Below, one piece after another: positions 2,623 to 25,941 of a stretch of 41,651 nt of DNA. The translations under genes and the position numbers were made by a program. The stretch is from positions 1-41,651 of the forward strand of contig NZ_PVTI01000029.1 in the NCBI RefSeq assembly GCF_003002895.1, in the 5' to 3' direction. Positions within the stretch are counted from its first letter, which is position 1. The number at the start of each line of letters is the position of its first letter. The notes under the pieces were generated by a model that had not been told where the DNA came from, searched no databases, and worked only from the letters and a program-made list of their open reading frames with translations. The DNA comes from Knoellia remsis (lineage in GTDB: Bacteria; Actinomycetota; Actinomycetes; Actinomycetales; Dermatophilaceae).

Positions 2623-4239
2623 TCACTCGATGGTGACGGGGATGGAGTGCCACCCGGTCGCCCCGCGGGGGAACGGCTCGGCGCGCTTCTCGGTCTGCAC
2701 GGCTCCGGTCGCGTCGGTCGCGCGGACGGTGAGCTGGTGCGGCCCGGGGGTCGCGTCCCACTCGAGGTACCACTGCCGCCAGTAGTTGATGTTCGCGTCC
2801 GGGCCCATCGTGGCTTCTTGCCACTCACCCTCATCGACACGCACCTCGACCTTCCGTATGCCGCGTCCCTGCGCCCAGGCGACGCCACCGATGACGACGG
2901 GGCCGGCCGTGAGCCTGGACAACCCGCGCGGGGTGTCGATGCGGGACTGGGTGAGCACCCGTCCGTCGGTGGCCCAGCCACGTTCGGTCCAGTAGGCCTC
3001 GGCAGCCGCGTACGTCGTCGCGGTGAGCCGCTCGACCCACTTCGTCGACCCGACGAACCCGTAGAGCCCCGGCGTGACGAGCCGGACGGGGTAGCCGTGC
3101 CGGCGCGGGAGCGGCTCGCCGTTCATGCCAACGGCGAGCAGGGCGTCGCGGTCGTCGGTGAGCGCCTCGACCGGCGTGGAGATGGTCATGCCCTCGACCG
3201 AGGTGCTGAGGATCTGGTCGACTCCGGAACGGATCCCCGCCCGGGACAACAAGGTTCGCACCGGCACGCCGAGGAACGTCGCCGCGCTGATGTAGCCGCC
3301 GCCGACCTCGTTGCTCACGCAGCAGAGGGTGATGTCCTTCTCGATGAGCGGCAGGTCGAGCAGCTCGGCGTAGGTGAGGGTGAACGGCGAGTCGACCTCG
3401 CCGTCGATCGTCAGCTCCCACGAGTCGGCGTCGACGCGCGGGATGACGAGGGCCGTGTCGATCCGGTAGAAGTCGCGGTTGGCCGTGCGGAACGGCGTGA
3501 GCCCGCGGACCCGCCCCTCGAGACCTGCGGGCAGGGGAGGCGCCGTCGTCGTCGGGGTCGGCAGGGTGAGGGTCGACGGTGCGAGGGCACCCGTCGTGAG
3601 CCGCTGCCCCAGGGCCCCCACGGCCACGGTGCCGGCAGCCGTCGCGCCCGCGCCGAAGAGGAACGCCCGTCGCCCGGTCGGCGACGGTTCACCGGTCGCG
3701 CGCGCGTTGTGGTCGGTGGGCGACTCGACGTGACCCGGGACATCGCGCACGGTCTCGGTGCGGTCGAGCGGGCTCACCTCGCGCGCCCGTGAACGCCCGG
3801 CGACGAGCCGCAGCAGCACCCCGAGCACGAGCAGCCCGACGAGGCCGGTCACGAGCCCCGGCAGGACGTCGAGCTGCCCCGCCGTCGGGCGGCTCACCGC
3901 CGCGGCCGTGGCCAGCGCCGCCAGCCCCACGAGTACGAGCCGCCCCACAGTCGGCCGGGTCCGGGACAGCACCCCCGCCACGGCCGCGAGCAGCAGCGTC
4001 ACCACCGTCACCGACCCGATGAGCACCGGCTTGTCGGCCGTGCCCATCGTCGAGACGGCCCACTCCTTGACCGGTGTCGGTGTCGCGTCGATGACGGTCG
4101 ACCCCACAGCCAGCACCGGCGAGGCTTCGGGGGAGACCAGCCCCGCCACGAGGTGACCGGCGGCGGCACCGGCGGCCGCCGCGAGGAGGCCGCTCACGGC
4201 ATACGGCCATCGCGAAGCGCGCTGGGACTGGTCCGTCAT
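2623..4239 (-). CDS. Membrane-anchored molybdopterin oxidoreductase (sulfite oxidase family)
   Basis: A 538-residue enzyme. An N-terminal half has about five hydrophobic segments (to about residue 150). A twin-arginine-like GRRAFLFGAG follows at about 189-198, then a sulfite-oxidase-type molybdopterin domain whose LCCVSNEVGGGYIS motif supplies the Mo-ligand Cys307. A C-terminal dimerisation domain ends GWHSIPVTIE. The catalytic part should face outside the membrane. The natural substrate cannot be read from sequence. ATG 4239 is chosen because the membrane region begins right after it; ATG 4248 or 4323 are alternatives, and 4323 would run into purF. It is divergent from purF and upstream of the fasciclin-SigK-RskA genes, a context that suggests a shared surface or redox role. 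Confidence 0.88.
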   Translation of the reverse strand: MTDQSQRASRWPYAVSGLLAAAAGAAAGHLVAGLVSPEASPVLAVGSTVIDATPTPVKEWAVSTMGTADKPVLIGSVTVVTLLLAAVAGVLSRTRPTVGRLVLVGLAALATAAAVSRPTAGQLDVLPGLVTGLVGLLVLGVLLRLVAGRSRAREVSPLDRTETVRDVPGHVESPTDHNARATGEPSPTGRRAFLFGAGATAAGTVAVGALGQRLTTGALAPSTLTLPTPTTTAPPLPAGLEGRVRGLTPFRTANRDFYRIDTALVIPRVDADSWELTIDGEVDSPFTLTYAELLDLPLIEKDITLCCVSNEVGGGYISAATFLGVPVRTLLSRAGIRSGVDQILSTSVEGMTISTPVEALTDDRDALLAVGMNGEPLPRRHGYPVRLVTPGLYGFVGSTKWVERLTATTYAAAEAYWTERGWATDGRVLTQSRIDTPRGLSRLTAGPVVIGGVAWAQGRGIRKVEVRVDEGEWQEATMGPDANINYWRQWYLEWDATPGPHQLTVRATDATGAVQTEKRAEPFPRGATGWHSIPVTIE

Positions 4240-4316
4240 ACCCACCATTCGACACCCGCGTCCCGGCGGATGGGTCACCGGACAGGGGCGCCGCGAACTC
4301 GTGGGACACTGGAGGC

Positions 4317-5891
4317 GTGGCACGCGGAGACGGACGGCTCACCCACGACCTCATGCCCGGGGAGAAGGGCCCGCAGGACGCCTGCGGGGTCTTCGGCGTC
4401 TGGGCGCCCGGCGAGGACGTCGCCAAGCTCACGTACTACGGCCTCTACGCCCTGCAGCACCGCGGGCAGGAGTCGGCCGGCATCGCGACGAGCAACGGCC
4501 GCCGCCTCCTCGTCTACAAGGACATGGGCCTCGTCTCGCAGGTCTTCGACGAGCGCTCGCTCGGGTCGCTGACCGGCCACCTCGCCATCGGCCACTGCCG
4601 CTACTCCACGACCGGCGGCTCGACGTGGGAGAACGCCCAGCCCACGCTCGGCGGCCACGACGGCGGCACCCTCGCCCTCGCCCACAACGGCAACCTCATC
4701 AACTCTGCCGAGCTGCGCGACCTCGTCGCCGAGACCACCGCCGACGGCGCCCAGCGCGGCGAGCTCGGCCGCGGCAACACCACCGACACCGCGCTCGTCA
4801 CGGCTCTCCTCACGGCGGACCCGGACCGCACCGTCGAGGCCGCTGCGCTCGACGTCCTGCCGAAGCTGCGCGGCGCGTTCTGCTTCGTCTTCATGAACGA
4901 GCACACCCTGTATGCCGCCCGCGACCCTCAGGGGATCCGTCCGTTGGTGTTGGGTCGCCTGGAGCGTGGCTGGGTCGTCGCCTCCGAGACGGCGGCGCTC
5001 GACATCGTCGGCGCGTCGTTCATCCGCGAGGTCGAGCCGGGTGAGCTCATCGCCATCGACGAGGACGGGCTGCGGTCCCAGCGGTTCGCCGAGACCGACC
5101 GCAAGGGCTGCGTCTTCGAGTACGTCTACCTCGCCCGCCCGGACACGACGATCAACGGCCGCGTCGTCCACGAGGCCCGCGTCGAGATGGGTCGCGCCCT
5201 CGCGCGTGAGCACCTCGTCGAGGCCGACCTCGTCATGCCGACGCCGGAGTCGGGCACGCCGGCCGCGATCGGCTATGCGCAGGAGTCCGGCATCCCCTAC
5301 GGCCAGGGCCTGGTCAAGAACGCCTATGTCGGCCGCACCTTCATCGCCCCGTCGCAGACGATCCGCCAGCTCGGCATCCGCCTCAAGCTCAACCCGCTGC
5401 GCGAGGTCATCAAGGGCAAGCGCCTCGTCGTCGTCGACGACTCGATCGTGCGCGGCAACACCCAGCGTGCGCTGGTCCGGATGCTGCGTGAGGCCGGCGC
5501 CGCGGAGGTGCACGTGCGCATCTCGTCGCCGCCGGTGCGCTGGCCCTGCTTCTACGGCATCGACTTCGCGACCCGCGCCGAGCTCATCGCGACCGGCATC
5601 GGGGTCGAGGAGGTCTGCAACTCGATCGGGGCCGACTCCCTCGGCTACATCTCCGAGGAGGGCATGGTCGCCGCGACCGAGCAGCCCCTCGAGCAGCTGT
5701 GCACGGCCTGCTTCACCGGCAGCTACCCCGTCGAGCTGCCGTCCGAGGACCAGCTCGGCAAGGGCCTGCTCGAGCTCGAGTTCCCTGTCGACATGGGCGA
5801 GACCGACGCGACCCAGACCGGCACCCTCGACGTCGACCGCGTCTCCGTCACGGCGTCCGGTGGGGCCGCCGAGGCCGTCCGCCGGCCCTGA
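4317..5891 (+). CDS. purF: Amidophosphoribosyltransferase
   Basis: A 524-residue enzyme of purine synthesis that makes phosphoribosylamine from PRPP and glutamine. A 22-residue propeptide precedes the catalytic Cys23 in ACGVFGVWAP. The Ntn-hydrolase glutaminase domain follows (LQHRGQESAGIA, CRYSTTGGS). The C-terminal phosphoribosyltransferase domain contains the PRPP loop VVVDDSIVRGNT and Cys residues typical of the Fe-S type enzyme (LCTACFTGSYP). Start GTG 4317 has GGAGG immediately upstream (4311-4315), with very short spacing. purM follows after 60 bases in the usual actinobacterial order. The leader between this gene and the divergent oxidoreductase is only 77 bases and shows no purine riboswitch that I can see. 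Confidence 0.96.
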   Translation: MARGDGRLTHDLMPGEKGPQDACGVFGVWAPGEDVAKLTYYGLYALQHRGQESAGIATSNGRRLLVYKDMGLVSQVFDERSLGSLTGHLAIGHCRYSTTGGSTWENAQPTLGGHDGGTLALAHNGNLINSAELRDLVAETTADGAQRGELGRGNTTDTALVTALLTADPDRTVEAAALDVLPKLRGAFCFVFMNEHTLYAARDPQGIRPLVLGRLERGWVVASETAALDIVGASFIREVEPGELIAIDEDGLRSQRFAETDRKGCVFEYVYLARPDTTINGRVVHEARVEMGRALAREHLVEADLVMPTPESGTPAAIGYAQESGIPYGQGLVKNAYVGRTFIAPSQTIRQLGIRLKLNPLREVIKGKRLVVVDDSIVRGNTQRALVRMLREAGAAEVHVRISSPPVRWPCFYGIDFATRAELIATGIGVEEVCNSIGADSLGYISEEGMVAATEQPLEQLCTACFTGSYPVELPSEDQLGKGLLELEFPVDMGETDATQTGTLDVDRVSVTASGGAAEAVRRP

Positions 5892-20263: not shown

Positions 20264-20650
20264 GTGAGCGAGCCGCACGACGACACCGGATCCCGGGACT
20301 CGCGCTTCCCGCGATGGGTCTATGGCGTGGGGGACGAGCCGGATCCCCGCTTCAGCCTCGCCAACGAGCGCACGTTCCTCGCGTGGATCCGGACCTCGCT
20401 CGCCCTCGTCGCCGGCGGTGTCGCCTTGGAGGCTGTCGCCGCACCGATGGACCCGACGCTGCGGCTCGGGGCGGCGATCCTGCTCGTCGCCCTGGGCGCG
20501 GTCGGAGCGGTGCAGGCGTGGCTCGCCTGGGCGCGGACCGAGCGCGCGCTGCGCCGGCACCGCGCACTGCCCGGCAACGGAGCCGCGCCACTGCTCGTCC
20601 TCGGGCTGCTCGTCGTCATCGTCCTCATCGCCCTGGGACTGACGCTGTGA
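20264..20650 (+). CDS. DUF202 / YidH-family membrane protein, first of a pair
   Basis: A 128-residue protein with three hydrophobic segments. The family mark RFSLANERTFLAWIRTSLAL is at about residues 29-48, before a helix; two more segments follow (AAILLVALGAVGAVQAWLAW and APLLVLGLLVVIVLIALGLT). Start GTG 20264 is chosen because it precedes the conserved region by a normal distance. The stop overlaps the start of a second DUF202 gene. Tandem DUF202 genes are common, and the two proteins probably assemble together. Function is unknown. Confidence 0.9.
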   Translation: MSEPHDDTGSRDSRFPRWVYGVGDEPDPRFSLANERTFLAWIRTSLALVAGGVALEAVAAPMDPTLRLGAAILLVALGAVGAVQAWLAWARTERALRRHRALPGNGAAPLLVLGLLVVIVLIALGLTL

Positions 20651-21000
20651 CGGCACCGCCCACAGGCGGCGTGGACGCGCCCTTCGATGCGGGTCTGCAA
20701 CCGGAGCGGACGCTGCTCGCATGGCGACGGACCGCACTGTCCCTCGCGGCCGGCAACGCGATCGCCCTGCGCGTCGCGGCCGGGGAGCTCGGCCTGCTCG
20801 CGGTCGTGCTCTGCCTCGTGGGACTCGGCGTCGCCGTGGGCGTGTGGATCCTCGCGACGCGGCGCTACCGGCGGGCGCACCTTTCCCTCGTGGCAGCGGA
20901 CGGCCCGCTCGCAGCCGGCGGCCTCACGGTGAGCGCGGTCGCGCTGTCGGCTGGCATCCTCGCGGTCCTCGGGTTCGCCCTCGTCCTCGTCCTGCAGTGA
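20647..21000 (+). CDS. DUF202-family membrane protein, second of a pair
   Basis: A 117-residue protein that starts at GTG 20647, overlapping the previous stop as GTGA. Its family motif is FDAGLQPERTLLAWRRTALS, followed by three hydrophobic segments ending LAVLGFALVLVLQ. It is a diverged paralogue of the gene before it (ERTLLAWRRT against ERTFLAWIRT). The longer open frame that begins at 20257 is only the first gene read in another phase. Directly after its stop the DNA becomes a degenerate repeat array. Confidence 0.9.
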   Translation: MTAPPTGGVDAPFDAGLQPERTLLAWRRTALSLAAGNAIALRVAAGELGLLAVVLCLVGLGVAVGVWILATRRYRRAHLSLVAADGPLAAGGLTVSAVALSAGILAVLGFALVLVLQ

Positions 21001-21115
21001 GGCGCGCCGACGCAGTCAGGCGCGCCGACCGAGCTGTGAGGCACGCAGACCGCGCTGAGCGCCCCGACCGCGCCGAGGCACGCAGACCGCGCTGAGGCAC
21101 GCAGACCGCGGTGAC
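21001..21115. repeat. Degenerate 18-19 bp repeat array after the DUF202 pair
   Basis: GAGGCACGCAGACCGCG occurs at 21038, 21075 and 21094, the last two exactly 19 bases apart. More diverged copies (GGCGCGCCGACGCAGTCAG, GGCGCGCCGACCGAGCTG and CGCCCCGACCGCGC) fill the space from 21001 and between copies. The array lies in the 227-base gap between the DUF202 pair and the methyltransferase operon. No gene is seen there; the promoter for the downstream operon should lie between about 21116 and 21215. Confidence 0.85.
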
Positions 21116-21227
21116 CATGCCGATGTGGTCATCGCGTGCATGGTCGCGATGACCTGCGGGTAGGTGGGGTGTCGAAGCGATCGATGCCGACCGTCACCGC
21201 GCGACGGTCACCTTCTCAGGAGGTTCC

Positions 21228-21995
21228 ATGGGACTGTCCGCTGCCCCGACGAGGTCGGCACCGCAGCTGAACAGCCGTCCGTCCGCGTCGGCCGGCACTG
21301 CGTGGCGCACACCGCCGGCGTGGGTGCGACTGCCCGGCTGCTACGTCGTCCAGGCGGACACGTGGCTCCTCGCCGACACCCTGTCCGAGCTGGGACTGGC
21401 GGAGGGGGCCGACGTCCTCGACCTCTGCACCGGAACGGGCGCGCTCGCCGTCGCGGCCGCCGCCGGCGGAGCCGACAGCGTGACCGCGGTCGACCTCTCG
21501 ATGCGGTCCGTGACGAGCGCCTGGCTCAACAGCCGTCGCCACGGCTCGACCGTGCGGGTGCTGCGCGGCGATCTGTTCTCGGTGCTGGGGGACGAGACCT
21601 TCGATGTCGTGGTGTGCAACCCGCCGTATGTTCCCGCCGCGACGAGCCGGCTGCCCCGGCACACGATGGCGCGCTGCTGGGACGCCGGCCCCGACGGCCG
21701 GCTGCTCCTCGACCGGATCTGCTCCGGTGTCGGCGAGCACCTGCGGCCCGGTGGATCGTTCCTCGTCGTGCACTCGACCGTCTCGGACGAGGAGCGCACC
21801 GTCGACCAGCTCGAGGAGCAGGGACTCGAGGCCGAGGTGGTGCGCCGTGCGTCGGTGCCATTCGGTCCGGTCATGCGCTCGCGAGCGGCGGACCTGCACT
21901 CGCGCAACCTCATCGCAGAGGGGCAGGACGTCGAGGAGATCGTCGTCGTCCACGCCCGCCAACCCGTCGAGGCGGCCGAGGAGGTGGCCTCATGA
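21228..21995 (+). CDS. HemK/PrmC-like SAM-dependent methyltransferase
   Basis: A 255-residue class I methyltransferase. ATG 21228 has an excellent AGGAGG six bases before it. The SAM site is VLDLCTGTGALAVAAAAGGA (motif I, about residues 64-83), followed by AVDLSMRS and the catalytic VVCNPPYVPA. NPPY enzymes methylate amide or amino nitrogens, as in glutamine methylation of release factors or N6-adenine in DNA. The protein resembles the short HemK2/Mtq2-like group rather than PrmC with its N-terminal helical domain. It is the first gene of four that overlap by ATGA, so its substrate may belong to the pathway of the three genes that follow (inference). Confidence 0.88.
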   Translation: MGLSAAPTRSAPQLNSRPSASAGTAWRTPPAWVRLPGCYVVQADTWLLADTLSELGLAEGADVLDLCTGTGALAVAAAAGGADSVTAVDLSMRSVTSAWLNSRRHGSTVRVLRGDLFSVLGDETFDVVVCNPPYVPAATSRLPRHTMARCWDAGPDGRLLLDRICSGVGEHLRPGGSFLVVHSTVSDEERTVDQLEEQGLEAEVVRRASVPFGPVMRSRAADLHSRNLIAEGQDVEEIVVVHARQPVEAAEEVAS

Positions 21996-22249
21996 ACGCT
22001 GAGCGGGACGACGTGACCCGGGTTGTCGTCACGAGCGACGGGCCGATCCTTGTGGACGGTCCCGTCGAGGTCGTGACGGCGGAGGGCACGACCGTCCACT
22101 CCGACCGCACGGTCGTCGCGATCTGCACCTGCAAGCGGAGCCGGATCCAGCCGTTCTGCGACACGAGCCACCGCAAGAAGGTGCGTCCCGAGCGCAGCGA
22201 CGATGGCGATACGAGCGACGACATCGAGCCACGGGGCGAGTCGACATGA
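21992..22249 (+). CDS. CDGSH iron-sulfur domain protein
   Basis: An 85-residue protein with one CDGSH-type [2Fe-2S] site, CTCKRSRIQPFCDTSHR at about residues 47-63. It follows the pattern C-x-C-x2-S-x3-P-x-C-D-x2-H, so three Cys and one His ligate the cluster. Before it are short strand-rich segments (GPILVDGPVEVVTAEGTTVH). ATG 21992 overlaps the methyltransferase stop, and its own stop overlaps the next start. Small CDGSH proteins are redox or cluster-transfer proteins. Here it is well placed to give electrons or iron-sulfur units to the iron enzyme coded next (inference). Confidence 0.92.
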   Translation: MNAERDDVTRVVVTSDGPILVDGPVEVVTAEGTTVHSDRTVVAICTCKRSRIQPFCDTSHRKKVRPERSDDGDTSDDIEPRGEST

Positions 22250-23367
22250 GCACCACGCTGCCGGCCCGGTCGCAGGCGTCGTCGGGTCCGGCGACGGTAC
22301 GAACCGTCCAGCCCGGCGCGCCCGTGCCACCGGCACAGCCGGCGGCGGCGCGCGCCACCGAGCGCGCGACGGCGCCAGCCCTGCCGCAACCGCGCGGCCC
22401 GATCTCGCAGGCCGTCATCGAGCACTGTGCCGGGACCGGTGGGGACGCTCCCTGGTCCACGGCGCGCGACGTCGACGCGTATGGCGAGGACCTGCACCTC
22501 GCGCTGTACGTCCTCTACGAGCTGCATTACCGCGGCTTCGCGGGGGTGGACCCCGAGCTCGAGTGGGACCTCGACCTCGTCGCGCTTCGCCTCGAGCTGG
22601 AGAAGGCGTTCCTTGCCCGGCTCCGCCGCGACACCGACGCCGACGCGGTCGAGGCACTGGACGAGACCGACCTGCGCGCCCTGCTCGACGAGGAGGTCGA
22701 CACGCTCCTCACTGAGGTGGTCGGTGCACCCAGCGTCTCCCGGCACCTCATGACGGTGGGCACGCTGGAGCAGTTCCGCGAGTACGTCACGCACCGGTCG
22801 GCATACCACCTCAAGGAGGCGGACCCGCAGCTACTCGTCGTCCCCCGCATCGAGGGGCCGGCGAAGTCCGGCCTCATGACGGTGCAGCACGACGAGTACG
22901 GCTCGGGCCGCGCCAGCGCCATGCACTCCGAGCTGTTCGCCGCGATGATGCGCGAGCTCGGGCTCGACGCCGGCTACGGCGCCCTCGTCGACCGCGTCAG
23001 CGGCACCGTCCTCGCCGAGGTCAACCTCATGTCGATGACCGGCCTGCACCGCAGCCTGCGCGGCGCGTCGGTGGGGCAGTTCGCCGTCATCGAGCTCACG
23101 TCCTCGCCCGGTTCGGCGCGCCTCGTCAAGGCCGCGCAGCGCCTCGGCTGCGGCCCGGCCACCGAGTACTACTACGCCGAGCACGTCGAGGCCGATGCCG
23201 TGCACGAGCAGATCTTGCGCCGCGACGTCCTCGCCCCGCTCGTCGAGGCCGAGCCGGAGATCGCGGCCGACATCGTCTTCGGGATCCGGGCGAGCGGGCT
23301 GCTCGCGACGCGGTTTGGCGACGCGGTGCTCGGCGCCTGGGCCGACGGCCGATCGAGCCTGGGATGA
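22246..23367 (+). CDS. Heme-oxygenase-like diiron oxidase (iron-containing redox enzyme family)
   Basis: A 373-residue protein with a Pro/Ala-rich N-terminus (to about residue 50) and a helical heme-oxygenase-like domain (PF14518 type). The metal-ligand spacing known for heme-oxygenase-like diiron oxidases is visible: Glu217-x9-His227 in DEYGSGRASAMH, Glu283 in FAVIELTSS, and His313-x3-Asp317-x2-His320 in EHVEADAVH. Members of this superfamily carry out N-oxygenation, fragmentation or decarboxylation on amino acids and fatty acids. The substrate is not evident here. It is coupled by ATGA overlaps to the CDGSH protein before it and to the ligase after it, which suggests a small oxidative modification pathway. 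Confidence 0.87.
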   Translation: MSTTLPARSQASSGPATVRTVQPGAPVPPAQPAAARATERATAPALPQPRGPISQAVIEHCAGTGGDAPWSTARDVDAYGEDLHLALYVLYELHYRGFAGVDPELEWDLDLVALRLELEKAFLARLRRDTDADAVEALDETDLRALLDEEVDTLLTEVVGAPSVSRHLMTVGTLEQFREYVTHRSAYHLKEADPQLLVVPRIEGPAKSGLMTVQHDEYGSGRASAMHSELFAAMMRELGLDAGYGALVDRVSGTVLAEVNLMSMTGLHRSLRGASVGQFAVIELTSSPGSARLVKAAQRLGCGPATEYYYAEHVEADAVHEQILRRDVLAPLVEAEPEIAADIVFGIRASGLLATRFGDAVLGAWADGRSSLG

Positions 23368-24425
23368 CGACCCGGACGGTCGGCGTCGAGGAGGAGTTCG
23401 TCCTCGCCGACGCCGAGACGAGCACGCCCGTGCCCATCGGACCCGAGCTCGTCGACGCGTCCCACGACACCGCGCTGCGCACCGAGTTCAAGCAGGAACA
23501 GCTCGAGCACGCCACGAGTCCCTGCGCGACGATGGACGACCTCGCGGCCGACCTCACTCGGGTGCGCGGGCTCGCCGTCGACCTCGCCGGCGCGCGCGGA
23601 GCCGTCGTCGTGGCGACGGGCACGTGGCCGGGCGCCCACGACCCGACGCCGGGTGACACCGACCGCTACCGCCACATCAACGAGGAGTTCGGCCACCTCG
23701 CCGTCGACCAGCTCACCTGCGGCACGCACGTCCACGTATCCGTCGAGTCCCCCGACGAGGGCATCGTCGCCCTCGACGGCATCCGCGCCTGGCTGCCGAT
23801 CCTCACTGCCCTCTGCGCGAACTCGCCGTTCTGGAAGGGTGAGGACACCGGCCACGCGAGCTATCGCACCGTCGTCATCTCGCGCCTCCCGACGGCCGGG
23901 CCGATGCCGGTGTGGGGTGACGTCGAGACGTACCGCCGGACCGTCGACGAGGTGCTCGAGACCGGCGCGGCCTTCGACGACGGCATGCTCTACTACGACG
24001 CCCGGCTGTCCGCGAGCTACCCGACCGTCGAGATCCGCGTGACCGACGTCTGCCCCGACCCGGACGTGTCGGTCGCGGTCGCGGCACTGTGCCGGGCCCT
24101 CGTCACGACCGCCGTCGACCGTGGACCGGTCGGGCCGGGGGCGCCGACGTCGACCGCACTGCGCGCGTCCGGGTGGCGCGCGGCCCGGCACGGCCTCGAG
24201 GACTGCCTCATCGACCCCGCCACCGGTCGGCTCGTCCGCGCCCGCGAGGCAGTGAGCTCGCTCCTCGGTTTCACCCGCGAGGCGCTCGAGGCCACCGGAG
24301 ACTTCGAGCGCGTCCGCGACACGACCGCGCGCCTCCTCACCGACGGCACGTATGCCGCCCGCTCCCGTTCCCGGGGCGCGCCCGGTGACGTCGCGGCGGC
24401 GGTCAAGGAGCTGCGCATCGGCTGA
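23364..24425 (+). CDS. GCS2-family carboxylate-amine ligase
   Basis: A 353-residue ATP-dependent ligase of the glutamate-cysteine ligase 2 family (YbdK-like). Start ATG 23364 overlaps the oxidase stop. The family blocks are VGVEEEFVLADAET at the N-terminus, EFKQEQLEHATSPC, RYRHINEEFG, CGTHVHVSVESPDEGI, NSPFWKGEDTGHASYRTVV and SYPTVEIRVTDVCPDPDV. These enzymes join an amine to a gamma-carboxylate, often of glutamate. True glutathione or mycothiol roles cannot be assumed, since actinobacteria make mycothiol by another route. In this operon it would supply or extend the amide or peptide substrate of the diiron enzyme (inference). Confidence 0.9.
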   Translation: MTTRTVGVEEEFVLADAETSTPVPIGPELVDASHDTALRTEFKQEQLEHATSPCATMDDLAADLTRVRGLAVDLAGARGAVVVATGTWPGAHDPTPGDTDRYRHINEEFGHLAVDQLTCGTHVHVSVESPDEGIVALDGIRAWLPILTALCANSPFWKGEDTGHASYRTVVISRLPTAGPMPVWGDVETYRRTVDEVLETGAAFDDGMLYYDARLSASYPTVEIRVTDVCPDPDVSVAVAALCRALVTTAVDRGPVGPGAPTSTALRASGWRAARHGLEDCLIDPATGRLVRAREAVSSLLGFTREALEATGDFERVRDTTARLLTDGTYAARSRSRGAPGDVAAAVKELRIG

Positions 24426-24430
24426 CGCGC

Positions 24431-24525
24431 AGCGGCGTGCGCGAGGGGAGCGGCCGGCATAGCGGCGTGCGCGAGGGGAGCGGCCGGCATACCTGCGCTG
24501 CGAGCGCGAGGCGCGCGACCGGCAT
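24431..24525. repeat. 30-bp tandem repeat between the ligase and permease genes
   Basis: Two identical 30-base units lie head to tail at 24431-24460 and 24461-24490, containing GCGTGCGCGAGGGGAGCGG and ending CCGGCAT. A third, diverged unit runs to 24525 and also ends ACCGGCAT. All three end at the CGGCATA motif that is frequent throughout the window. The array lies in the 157-base gap between a stop at 24425 and the permease start at 24583, with no gene inside. Confidence 0.9.
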
Positions 24526-24582
24526 ACCGGCGGGTAGGCGTCGCAACCGGCCCGGAAGGTGACGGGTCACTACTGTGCGGGG

Positions 24583-25941
24583 ATGGAGATCCTGCACTCG
24601 GCGATCGCGATCCTCGCGGCGATCCTGCTCATCATCCGGTTCAAGGTCGACCCGGTCATCTCGCTGCTCATCGCGTGCGTCTACCTCGGGCTCGCGACGG
24701 GGCAGGGTGCCGAGGGCACGGTTACGCAGATCACGACGGGGTTCGGCGAGATCATGGCGGAGGTCGGTCTGCTCATCGGGTTCGGCGTGCTCATCGGGGC
24801 GCTGCTGCACTCGATGGGGACGTTCGGCGACCTCGTCGACATCCTCGCGCGGCGCGTGGGCAAGCGGCTGCCCTACGCCATGGCGGGGACGCTGTCGACG
24901 ATCTTCCCGTCGATCTATGTCGACGTGCAGGTCGTCCTCGCAGCGCCGATGGCGAAGGAGTCCGCGCCGGCCGTCGACCGCCGAATCGGGCTGCCGTGGC
25001 TCGCGGGCGCGATGGGGATCGGCATCTTCGCTGGGTACGTCTTCGTCGTGCCGGGGCTCGCTGCCGTGGCGGTGGCCGGGCTCATGGACGTGCCGCTCGG
25101 GAAGTACCTCATCTTCGGGCTGCCGATCGGGCTCGCGACCGCGCTCATCACGACACTGCTCTTCAAGCTGCTGCTGCGCCGCGGGTTCTGGAACGAGTCG
25201 ACCGACCTCGACGAGGACGGCGTCGTCGAGGACGGCGTCGTGCAGGACGAGGTCGAGGCCGTGCCGGCCGCGGAGGGTGCGGCCCGGCTGCCGCTCCTCG
25301 TGCGGCTGCTGCCGATCCTCGTGCCGCTCGTCCTCATCGCGACCGCGGCCATCCTCGGCGTGCTCGAGGTCTCGAACCCCGTCCTCGACTTCCTCGGCGA
25401 CGCGAACATCGCCCTCTTCATCGGCCTGCTCATCGCGTTCCTCATGGTGCGGCGCGCGATCGGCGCCGACGGGGTCGGGTCGGTGCTGACCGCCGGGTTC
25501 CACACGACCGGTGAGATCCTCCTCGTCACCGGCGTCGGCGGCTCGCTCGGTGCGGTCATCGCCGAGAGCGGCATGCAGGACACCCTCAAGTCACTCTTCT
25601 CCGCCGACGCCAACGCCCCGGTGATCGTCTCGATCCTGCTCGCCTGGTTCATCGCGGCGGTGCTGCACTTCGCCATCGGGTCGGTGTCGGTCGGCGCGAT
25701 CACCGCGGCCGGGATCATCGCGCCGGTCGTGGGCTCGCTCGGGGTCGACCCCGTCGTCATCGCGCTCGCGATCGCGTCGGGCGCGATGTTCGCGCTGCAC
25801 GTCAACAGCAACTTCTTCTGGATGTTCGCAACGCTGTTGCGTCTGTCCACCAAGGGCGCGCTCAAGACGCTGACGCTGGCGACGTCGCTCGGTGCCGTCG
25901 TGTCGCTGCCGCTCGTCATCGTCGCGAGCCTCGTGACTTGA
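24583..25941 (+). CDS. GntP-family gluconate/organic-acid:H+ symporter
   Basis: A 452-residue transporter with about 12 hydrophobic segments. ATG 24583 (MEILHSAIAILAAILLIIRF) follows GCGGGG; the ATG eight codons earlier lacks a ribosome site. GntP family features include the early FKVDPVISLLIACVYLGL, TTGFGEIMAEVGLLIGFGVL, FPSIYVDVQVVLAAPMA, the acidic central loop (TDLDEDGVVEDGVVQDEVEA) and NSNFFWMFATLLRLSTK near the end. Gluconate is the founding substrate, but related hydroxy acids are also carried, and no catabolic gene nearby points to one. Transcription of the next gene appears separate. Confidence 0.9.
   Translation: MEILHSAIAILAAILLIIRFKVDPVISLLIACVYLGLATGQGAEGTVTQITTGFGEIMAEVGLLIGFGVLIGALLHSMGTFGDLVDILARRVGKRLPYAMAGTLSTIFPSIYVDVQVVLAAPMAKESAPAVDRRIGLPWLAGAMGIGIFAGYVFVVPGLAAVAVAGLMDVPLGKYLIFGLPIGLATALITTLLFKLLLRRGFWNESTDLDEDGVVEDGVVQDEVEAVPAAEGAARLPLLVRLLPILVPLVLIATAAILGVLEVSNPVLDFLGDANIALFIGLLIAFLMVRRAIGADGVGSVLTAGFHTTGEILLVTGVGGSLGAVIAESGMQDTLKSLFSADANAPVIVSILLAWFIAAVLHFAIGSVSVGAITAAGIIAPVVGSLGVDPVVIALAIASGAMFALHVNSNFFWMFATLLRLSTKGALKTLTLATSLGAVVSLPLVIVASLVT

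Follow-up and report, generated by a model that had tools for sequence, protein, structure and literature searches.

The four-gene run of the Knoellia remsis locus

The window considered here is a 41,651-nucleotide stretch of Knoellia remsis DNA (contig NZ_PVTI01000029.1 of RefSeq assembly GCF_003002895.1, positions 1 to 41,651, forward strand), and its subject is an operon-like run of four genes, defined by open reading frame (ORF) coordinates on the forward strand, which encode in order a methyltransferase, a CDGSH-type protein, a heme-oxygenase-like diiron oxidase/oxygenase (HDO) and a GCS2 ligase. This locus represents a Knoellia form of a cassette that is widespread in actinobacteria, the conserved core of which is the HDO, the CDGSH protein and the HemK-type methyltransferase. 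The features of the locus are as follows.

21138-21163, + strand: candidate SigB/SigF-type stress promoter, GCAT-N16-GGGTAG (relaxed pattern; putative)
21218-21223, + strand: ribosome-binding site AGGAGG of the first gene, 4 nt 5' of the first ATG
21228-21995, + strand: HemK2/MTQ2-like S-adenosylmethionine (SAM) methyltransferase, 255 aa (TIGR00537, fold, co-conservation)
21992-22249, + strand: CDGSH-type [2Fe-2S] protein, 85 aa, motif CxC...CDTSH (PF09360; proposed electron donor of the HDO)
22246-23367, + strand: HDO, 373 aa (PF14518, seven ligands, AF2 model and Foldseek)
23364-24425, + strand: YbdK-type GCS2 carboxylate-amine ligase, 353 aa (TIGR02050, NF010041; lineage-specific accessory gene)

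The initial annotation of this DNA, made from the letters without database searches, had described all four genes as coupled by ATGA and the first as preceded by AGGAGG; the overlaps are present at 21992, 22246 and 23364, the AGGAGG is found before the first gene, and the four family calls made at that stage are borne out by Pfam and TIGRFAM scores. No sigma-70 promoter or intrinsic terminator was found in 20900-24700.

The HDO scores 177.5 bits with Haem_oxygenas_2 (PF14518), the only Pfam domain found, and the Pfam scan of its 373 aa found no C-terminal cupin domain. The six metal ligands named in the initial annotation (E217, H227, E283, H313, D317 and H320) are present and invariant in 31 of 31 aligned proteins of HDO group A, window included (groups A and B are defined below), as is a seventh, E191, which that annotation lacked. 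In a sequence alignment only, E191 aligns with the Glu of the SznF FLSEASP stretch, presumably the SznF ligand Glu189. All seven residues also occur in the 19 usable group B proteins, a 20th having been truncated in extraction. Judged from these residues, the ligand set is predicted to be of the SznF type, with three histidines and four carboxylates (3H/4C). SznF was the first enzyme in which such a set was noticed; about 25% of HDOs are estimated to have it, and SznF, CmlI and AurF, which share it, are all N-oxygenases (PMC13108848). Structure prediction of the diiron enzyme, which had been suggested as a check, gave an AlphaFold2 (AF2) model with a heme-oxygenase-like helical fold and a mean predicted local distance difference test score (pLDDT) of 90.6. 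The nearest folds identified by Foldseek are HrmI, SznF and RohS, ahead of FlcD, CADD and BesC, with E-values against HDOs down to 3.4e-9, and HrmI and RohS are titled N-oxygenases among the matches. The identity of the protein as a heme-oxygenase-like diiron enzyme is supported by ligands, predicted fold and co-conservation; it most likely binds two irons and activates O2, and N-oxygenation is the best guess for its reaction from the ligand set and nearest folds.

The CDGSH protein is a small protein of 85 aa with zf-CDGSH (PF09360, 63.1 bits) as its sole Pfam domain. Its cluster ligands C45, C47, C56 and H60 (3 Cys - 1 His) are invariant in 32 of 32 proteins, window included; the window motif reads CDTSH in place of the literal CDGSH, and T58 is conserved in 90% or more of these 32 sequences. 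CDGSH proteins of the mitoNEET type carry redox-active [2Fe-2S] clusters, and the mitoNEET cluster takes electrons from FMNH2 made by flavin reductase (PMC9490426). Of 107 loci, 3 have a flavin-reductase-like gene in the vicinity of the HDO: in L054 the distance is 125 bp, and in L072 and L104 it is greater. Paired CDGSH domains in an apparent single frame were observed on contigs G016:C24, G087:C11, G024:C101, G061:C75, G076:C48 and G047:C11, none of which bears a listed HDO.

The methyltransferase scores 57.4 bits with MTS and 104.8 bits with the HemK2/MTQ2 model TIGR00537 (cut-off 87), and falls well below the PrmC equivalog cut-off (86.5 vs 199.1 bits). Its NPPY motif is located at residues 131-134, and N131-Y134 are invariant in 28 of 28 aligned proteins. 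Enzymes bearing (N/D)PP(Y/W) methylate planar nitrogens. The AF2 model (mean pLDDT 90.8) is matched best in Foldseek by KMT9/N6AMT1, then by E. coli PrmC, and the N-methylating type proposed in the initial annotation is likely on the grounds of family, predicted fold and co-conservation.

The fourth protein is a YbdK-type ligase by score, with 164.4 bits for the GCS2 Pfam domain, 260 bits for TIGR02050 (cut-off 176.4) and 374 bits for NF010041 (cut-off 332), and YbdK (1r8g) is its second-best solved relative. It is not EgtA (TIGR03444, 23.4 vs 370.8 bits), nor by score is it cyanobacterial GshA.

Co-conservation of the core in actinobacteria

At least 577 relatives of the HDO were found when genome contigs were searched, and the best 80 were kept; all 80 loci are labelled actinobacteria, and 50 are labelled Streptomyces. 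With neighbours counted up to 3.5 kb from the HDO, and with an identity floor of 36% for the methyltransferase that was chosen by the analyst, a CDGSH gene is found in 76 of the 80 nearest loci, a methyltransferase in 73, and the two together with the HDO in 72. The order of the genes varies considerably among these 72 complete loci: HDO-methyltransferase-CDGSH in 31, methyltransferase-CDGSH-HDO (as in the window) in 28, the HDO followed by a convergent CDGSH-methyltransferase pair in 8, the HDO placed between the other two in 3, and other arrangements in 2. As linkage has been kept through rearrangement, a shared function of the trio is indicated. The gene-neighbourhood comparison across actinobacteria that had been proposed as a check thus returned a co-conserved set of three genes without GCS2, and the four-gene unit of the initial annotation did not hold beyond close relatives, the overlapping four-gene form being seen only in Knoellia.

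The same linkage was examined in an unselected set of 148 genomes sampled evenly across the class. Scores with the HDO profile separate 26 loci at 400 bits or more in 25 genomes (group A) from 46 loci at 251-375 bits (group B); five extra matches at 76-85 bits, two of which are second pieces of counted loci, were left out. Of the 26 group A loci, 24 have a CDGSH gene no more than 3 kb from the HDO, and the same is true of 34 of the 46 loci in group B. As the CDGSH profile used here (A3) was built from HDO-side CDGSH proteins, a count made by Pfam alone is the fair test: CDGSH is found within 3 kb in 59 of 72 PF14518 loci at 150 bits or more and in 0 of 41 weaker PF14518 loci, nine rows under 29 bits having been left out (Fisher 1e-19, uncorrected for kinship). 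This difference indicates that the pairing is specific to an HDO subfamily and not to PF14518 at large. The 148 genomes hold 95 CDGSH Pfam matches, 59 near a strong HDO and 36 not. The NPPY methyltransferase is present in 24 of the 148 genomes, all 24 of which have a group A HDO, and 21 of its 25 matches lie within 3.5 kb of one. The suggestion that the CDGSH protein is the likely redox partner of the diiron enzyme is strengthened by this co-conservation.

A sister version of the cassette is seen in family f1, the family of the window, from which 119 genomes were taken in stretches reaching only about 1.5 kb on each side of the HDO. Sixteen of these genomes have an HDO at E <= 1e-50: three of these, out of five genomes in genus g1, are group A, and the remaining 13 are group B-like (225-341 bits). 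CDGSH adjoins the HDO in all 13 sister loci, and 9 of the 13 carry a HemK-like methyltransferase with DPPW instead of NPPY, in the order HDO-CDGSH-methyltransferase on one strand; the two DPPW proteins scanned are PrmC/HemK relatives below cut-off. With the DPPW type in these nine sister loci, two diverged forms of the trio are seen.

Other arrangements were observed around the HDO in both the sample and the nearest loci. In family f20, seven of eight strong-HDO genomes are without a CDGSH match, and in the f20 loci L097 (7403-8260, - strand) and L098 (5057-5851, + strand) the HDO is overlapped by a SAM-methyltransferase-like gene, which in L098 has no Pfam match. In L093 (G016:C59, 6065-8419, + strand) an HDO and a glycosyltransferase-2-like (GT2-like) domain are fused in an open frame of 785 aa; GT2-like genes no further than 1.2 kb from the HDO in seven additional loci suggest a second, glycosylating branch of group B. 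An EgtD-like Methyltransf_33 gene adjoins the cassette in seven loci, either after the HDO (L010, L013, L014, L018) or before the methyltransferase (L011, L016, L020). Three of these proteins score 236-255 bits with TIGR03438, below its cut-off of 290.9, and the gene is regarded as an accessory of the cassette and not as part of the core. The cassette, or the HDO-CDGSH pair, is also carried on actinobacterial plasmids (L103, L104, L105 and L106), L106 being a 62-kb Curtobacterium plasmid with the HDO-CDGSH pair.

The GCS2 ligase is a Knoellia-side addition and an occasional neighbour elsewhere. Knoellia is the sole genus among the loci examined in which it overlaps the HDO gene or comes immediately after it (the window, L003 = L110 and L004 = L109). 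It is present in 8 of the 80 nearest loci, and a hand count places it no more than 6 kb from the HDO in 4 of the 26 group A loci if the window is counted and in 3 of 25 if it is not; it was rejected as a core member on co-conservation. On the Kitasatospora plasmid L104, a dimethylargininase gene (4094-4915, + strand) stands directly before the HDO, with a YbdK ligase before the dimethylargininase. An arginine pathway was considered and set aside, a dimethylargininase relative being present in 20 of 25 group A genomes and by hand comparison never near the HDO.

The genes flanking the run in the window are not part of the cassette, as neither the DUF202 gene (20264-20997) nor the GntP permease gene (24559-25941) has a match in the 80 nearest loci. 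The upstream segment 20264-20997 appears as a tandem pair of small membrane-type ORFs, the first of which is the DUF202 protein, and imperfect repeats of a AGCGGCGTGCGCGAGGGGAGCGGCCGGCAT-like unit were noted by eye at 24431-24530, between the GCS2 and permease genes. An anti-phage defence system was rejected, as the PADLOC models gave no set across the four proteins: the methyltransferase scores 80.6 bits with mad2, over part of that model, and 17.2 bits with MTase_II, and the CDGSH, HDO and GCS2 proteins have 0 matches.

Stress-type promoter patterns

A strict SigB-type pattern (GNNT-N14-17-GGGTA[CT]) was sought ahead of the leading gene in each of the 80 nearest loci and occurs in 31 of them, compared with 1.0 of 80 in shuffles, 1.4 of 80 in random windows of the same loci, and 26 of 490 upstream of other conserved ORFs. 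A tighter G[GT]TT form is found in 11 of 80 (0.2 in shuffles). The pattern sites number 33 in all, and 15 of them have their first base 54-57 nt upstream of the point where the matched gene segment starts. The candidate in the window ends 64 nt before the first start and departs from the strict pattern, as its last base is G. Listings of S. coelicolor SigB-type promoters include GGGTAG as a -10 box and weak GNNT boxes at -35 (PMC8346170). DNA alignment of the three Knoellia upstream regions gave nothing usable.

By annotation, the plasmid neighbours of the cassette include genes for SigB/SigF sigma factors, STAS and GAF-ANTAR proteins in L103, for SpoIIE, STAS, SRPBCC and CsbD proteins in L104, and for gas vesicles in L105. 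In view of the promoter patterns, stress control, to which the initial annotation made no reference, is likely for the family as a whole and plausible for the window copy.

Proposed pathway, rival explanations and known systems

The family membership of each part is firm. From the gene content, ligands, predicted folds, co-conservation and promoter-pattern enrichment observed here, a stress-inducible pathway is tentatively proposed, and regarded as a real possibility short of probable, that would N-methylate and N-oxygenate an amino-acid-like substrate, the CDGSH protein supplying electrons to the diiron site. The HDO, with its SznF-type seven-ligand set, would bind two irons, activate O2 and oxygenate a nitrogen of the amino-acid-like substrate; the CDGSH [2Fe-2S] protein would re-reduce the diiron site between turnovers and would in turn receive its electrons from a general flavin reductase. 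The methyltransferase would methylate a planar nitrogen (amide, guanidine or similar) of the same substrate, following the logic of SznE and SznF, and in Knoellia the GCS2 ligase would add a probable amide bond to a glutamate-like acid. A general-stress sigma factor probably drives expression, and the order of the steps and the nature of the product are conjectural. The fuller proposal, that this is a general-stress metabolite pathway with the CDGSH protein as dedicated HDO donor, an N-methyl/N-oxy product, and NPPY and DPPW versions, is more doubtful. The pathway suggested in the initial annotation, in which an amine is joined to a glutamate-like acid, oxidised with electrons from the CDGSH protein and methylated, survives in its diiron enzyme, its CDGSH partner and its N-methylating type, and loses the GCS2 step as a core reaction.

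A number of observations weigh against the proposed pathway. The identity of the HDO to the structures matched by Foldseek is only about 16-22%, and HrmI, the nearest fold, is an enzyme with three histidines and three carboxylates (3H/3C; PMC13108848), so that fold rank does not follow ligand set and the two arguments are partly at odds. The conserved residues R201, K207, R269 and R272 are not common to SznF in the alignment, and the substrate is therefore probably not that of SznF but another amino-acid-like compound. Ten of 70 strong-HDO genomes are without any CDGSH match (one of them, G069, has its HDO at the end of a contig), and three others carry CDGSH away from the HDO, on another contig in G118 and G043 and 8 kb away in G093; a strong HDO thus need not have CDGSH as a neighbour, or in its genome at all. 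The methyltransferase-CDGSH pair of G118 is on a contig other than that of the HDO, and the methyltransferase is about 200 kb from the HDO in G112 and G018. The 80-locus counts are not independent, as 50 of the 80 are Streptomyces. With regard to the promoter pattern, the complementary strand of those upstream regions gave matches in 9 of 80, above the random rate, which may reflect divergent stress genes, and the pattern is rarer in methyltransferase-led loci such as the window (6 of 28) than in HDO-led loci (25 of 52). No precursor peptide candidate was kept among the recurrent small ORFs near the cassette, the commonest being Streptomyces ones antisense to a larger ORF family (L066 checked).

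An HDO that performs carbon chemistry on the methylated substrate, such as desaturation, C-C cleavage or ring formation, would leave the trio as the same pathway with a different product. HDOs with identical or similar ligand sets are known to differ in reaction (PMC13108848), and the conserved pocket-side basic residues differ from those of SznF; however, the seven-ligand SznF set and the nearest folds, which are all N-oxygenases, favour nitrogen as the site of oxygenation, and carbon chemistry is considered unlikely. That the trio forms no pathway at all, but is a group of separate stress proteins behind one promoter, with the methyltransferase acting on protein glutamine and the HDO and CDGSH protein serving in, for example, oxygen or peroxide scavenging, seems less likely again. 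It would account for the stress-type promoter patterns and stress-gene neighbours, for GCS2 and gas-vesicle genes loosely near some loci, and for a methyltransferase that exceeds the HemK2/MTQ2 cut-off with a fold nearest KMT9/N6AMT1 and PrmC, but the trio is kept in varied orders and in two diverged versions, more tightly than island membership would require, and the PrmC equivalog cut-off is far off (86.5 of 199.1 bits).

The other two explanations reassign single members of the cassette. It is rather improbable that all four genes form one pathway, in which GCS2 joins an amine to a glutamate-like acid before oxidation and methylation, even though the genes overlap in Knoellia, a GCS2 of another subfamily (35-38% identity) immediately precedes the HDO in Actinomadura (L046) and Actinocorallia (L082), or is separated from it by a single gene on the Kitasatospora plasmid L104, and the 4 of 26 group A loci with GCS2 within 6 kb exceed a rough expectation of 0.12 (2.4 copies per 6.3 Mb). 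Against this, GCS2 is absent from 72 of the 80 nearest loci over the stretches covered, some of which are short, the same side position is taken by the EgtD-like methyltransferase in seven loci, and all 25 group A genomes carry a GCS2 somewhere, so that its presence is not specific. More improbable still is a role for the CDGSH protein as partner of the methyltransferase and not as donor to the HDO. The eukaryotic HemK2-type enzyme depends on Trm112, a small metal protein, and several of the top fold matches of the methyltransferase are complexes with Trm112; the pair also stays together without the HDO in G118. This explanation is retained because the two genes are same-strand neighbours in 68 of 72 complete loci (31 + 28 + 8 + L054). 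It is opposed by L106 (by annotation), L009 and L059, where CDGSH accompanies the HDO and no NPPY methyltransferase was found close by, by the CDGSH genes near the HDO in 34 of 46 group B loci, though many of these may have the DPPW type, and by the redox [2Fe-2S] clusters held by CDGSH proteins of the mitoNEET kind (PMC9490426).

Part of the interest of the proposed N-methylating and N-oxygenating pathway lies in the electron donor. Dedicated donors of HDOs are hardly known: MboA-MboB is described by its authors as perhaps the first characterised dedicated pair of an HDO and its redox partner (PMC13185094, 2026). With a CDGSH gene close to the HDO in 59 of 72 strong loci, there is a second and different candidate, and the putative partnership is open to direct in vitro test. 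In the literature searched, a CDGSH protein would be a new type of HDO redox partner. The initial annotation knew of no described product for its gene set, and no published pathway was found in the open literature searched; nor did that literature, mostly without subscription papers, yield a paper describing the CDGSH/HDO/methyltransferase set. No CDGSH appears among the matches listed for one multi-term search, the accessible text of PMC13061610 does not mention CDGSH, and a figure legend in PMC11854999 places a CDGSH gene near alkB in Rhodococcus, a different diiron system. The pairing of the HDO with at least two types of HemK-like methyltransferase points to shared N-methyl/N-oxy chemistry, and the promoter pattern suggests a stress-response product rather than an ordinary antibiotic cluster, thereby indicating when the product should be looked for.

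In streptozotocin synthesis, SznE is the N-methyltransferase, and the cupin domain of SznF finishes the chemistry. The cassette resembles this system in its predicted combination of a SAM N-methyltransferase with an HDO of the 3H/4C kind, the ligand set described for SznF (PMC13108848). SznF is also the best sequence match of the window HDO in the PDB (E = 2.8e-8), with 19-22% identity in structural alignments; unlike in SznF, no cupin domain was found in the window protein, and a CDGSH gene adjoins the HDO gene. The lysine N-oxygenases HrmI and BelK, together with RohS, offer a further likeness, as the closest folds include those of HrmI and RohS (TMq 0.55-0.67), although the 3H/3C set of HrmI (PMC13108848) differs from the 3H/4C set predicted here. 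MboA and MboB of mangotoxin synthesis provide the parallel of an HDO with a dedicated [2Fe-2S]-containing redox partner; MboB is a flavin and Fe2S2 reductase (PMC13185094), and the candidate partner here is an 85-aa protein with CDGSH as its sole Pfam domain. In comparing the remaining proteins, the GCS2 ligase is like other YbdK-type ligases in exceeding the TIGR02050 cut-off and unlike them in its operon context with an HDO. The methyltransferase shares NPPY, a TIGR00537 score above cut-off and the same predicted fold with HemK2/MTQ2 (KMT9, N6AMT1) and PrmC; it scores far below the PrmC equivalog models and, unlike both HemK2/MTQ2 and PrmC, the window type was found, among the 148 genomes, only in those that have a group A HDO.

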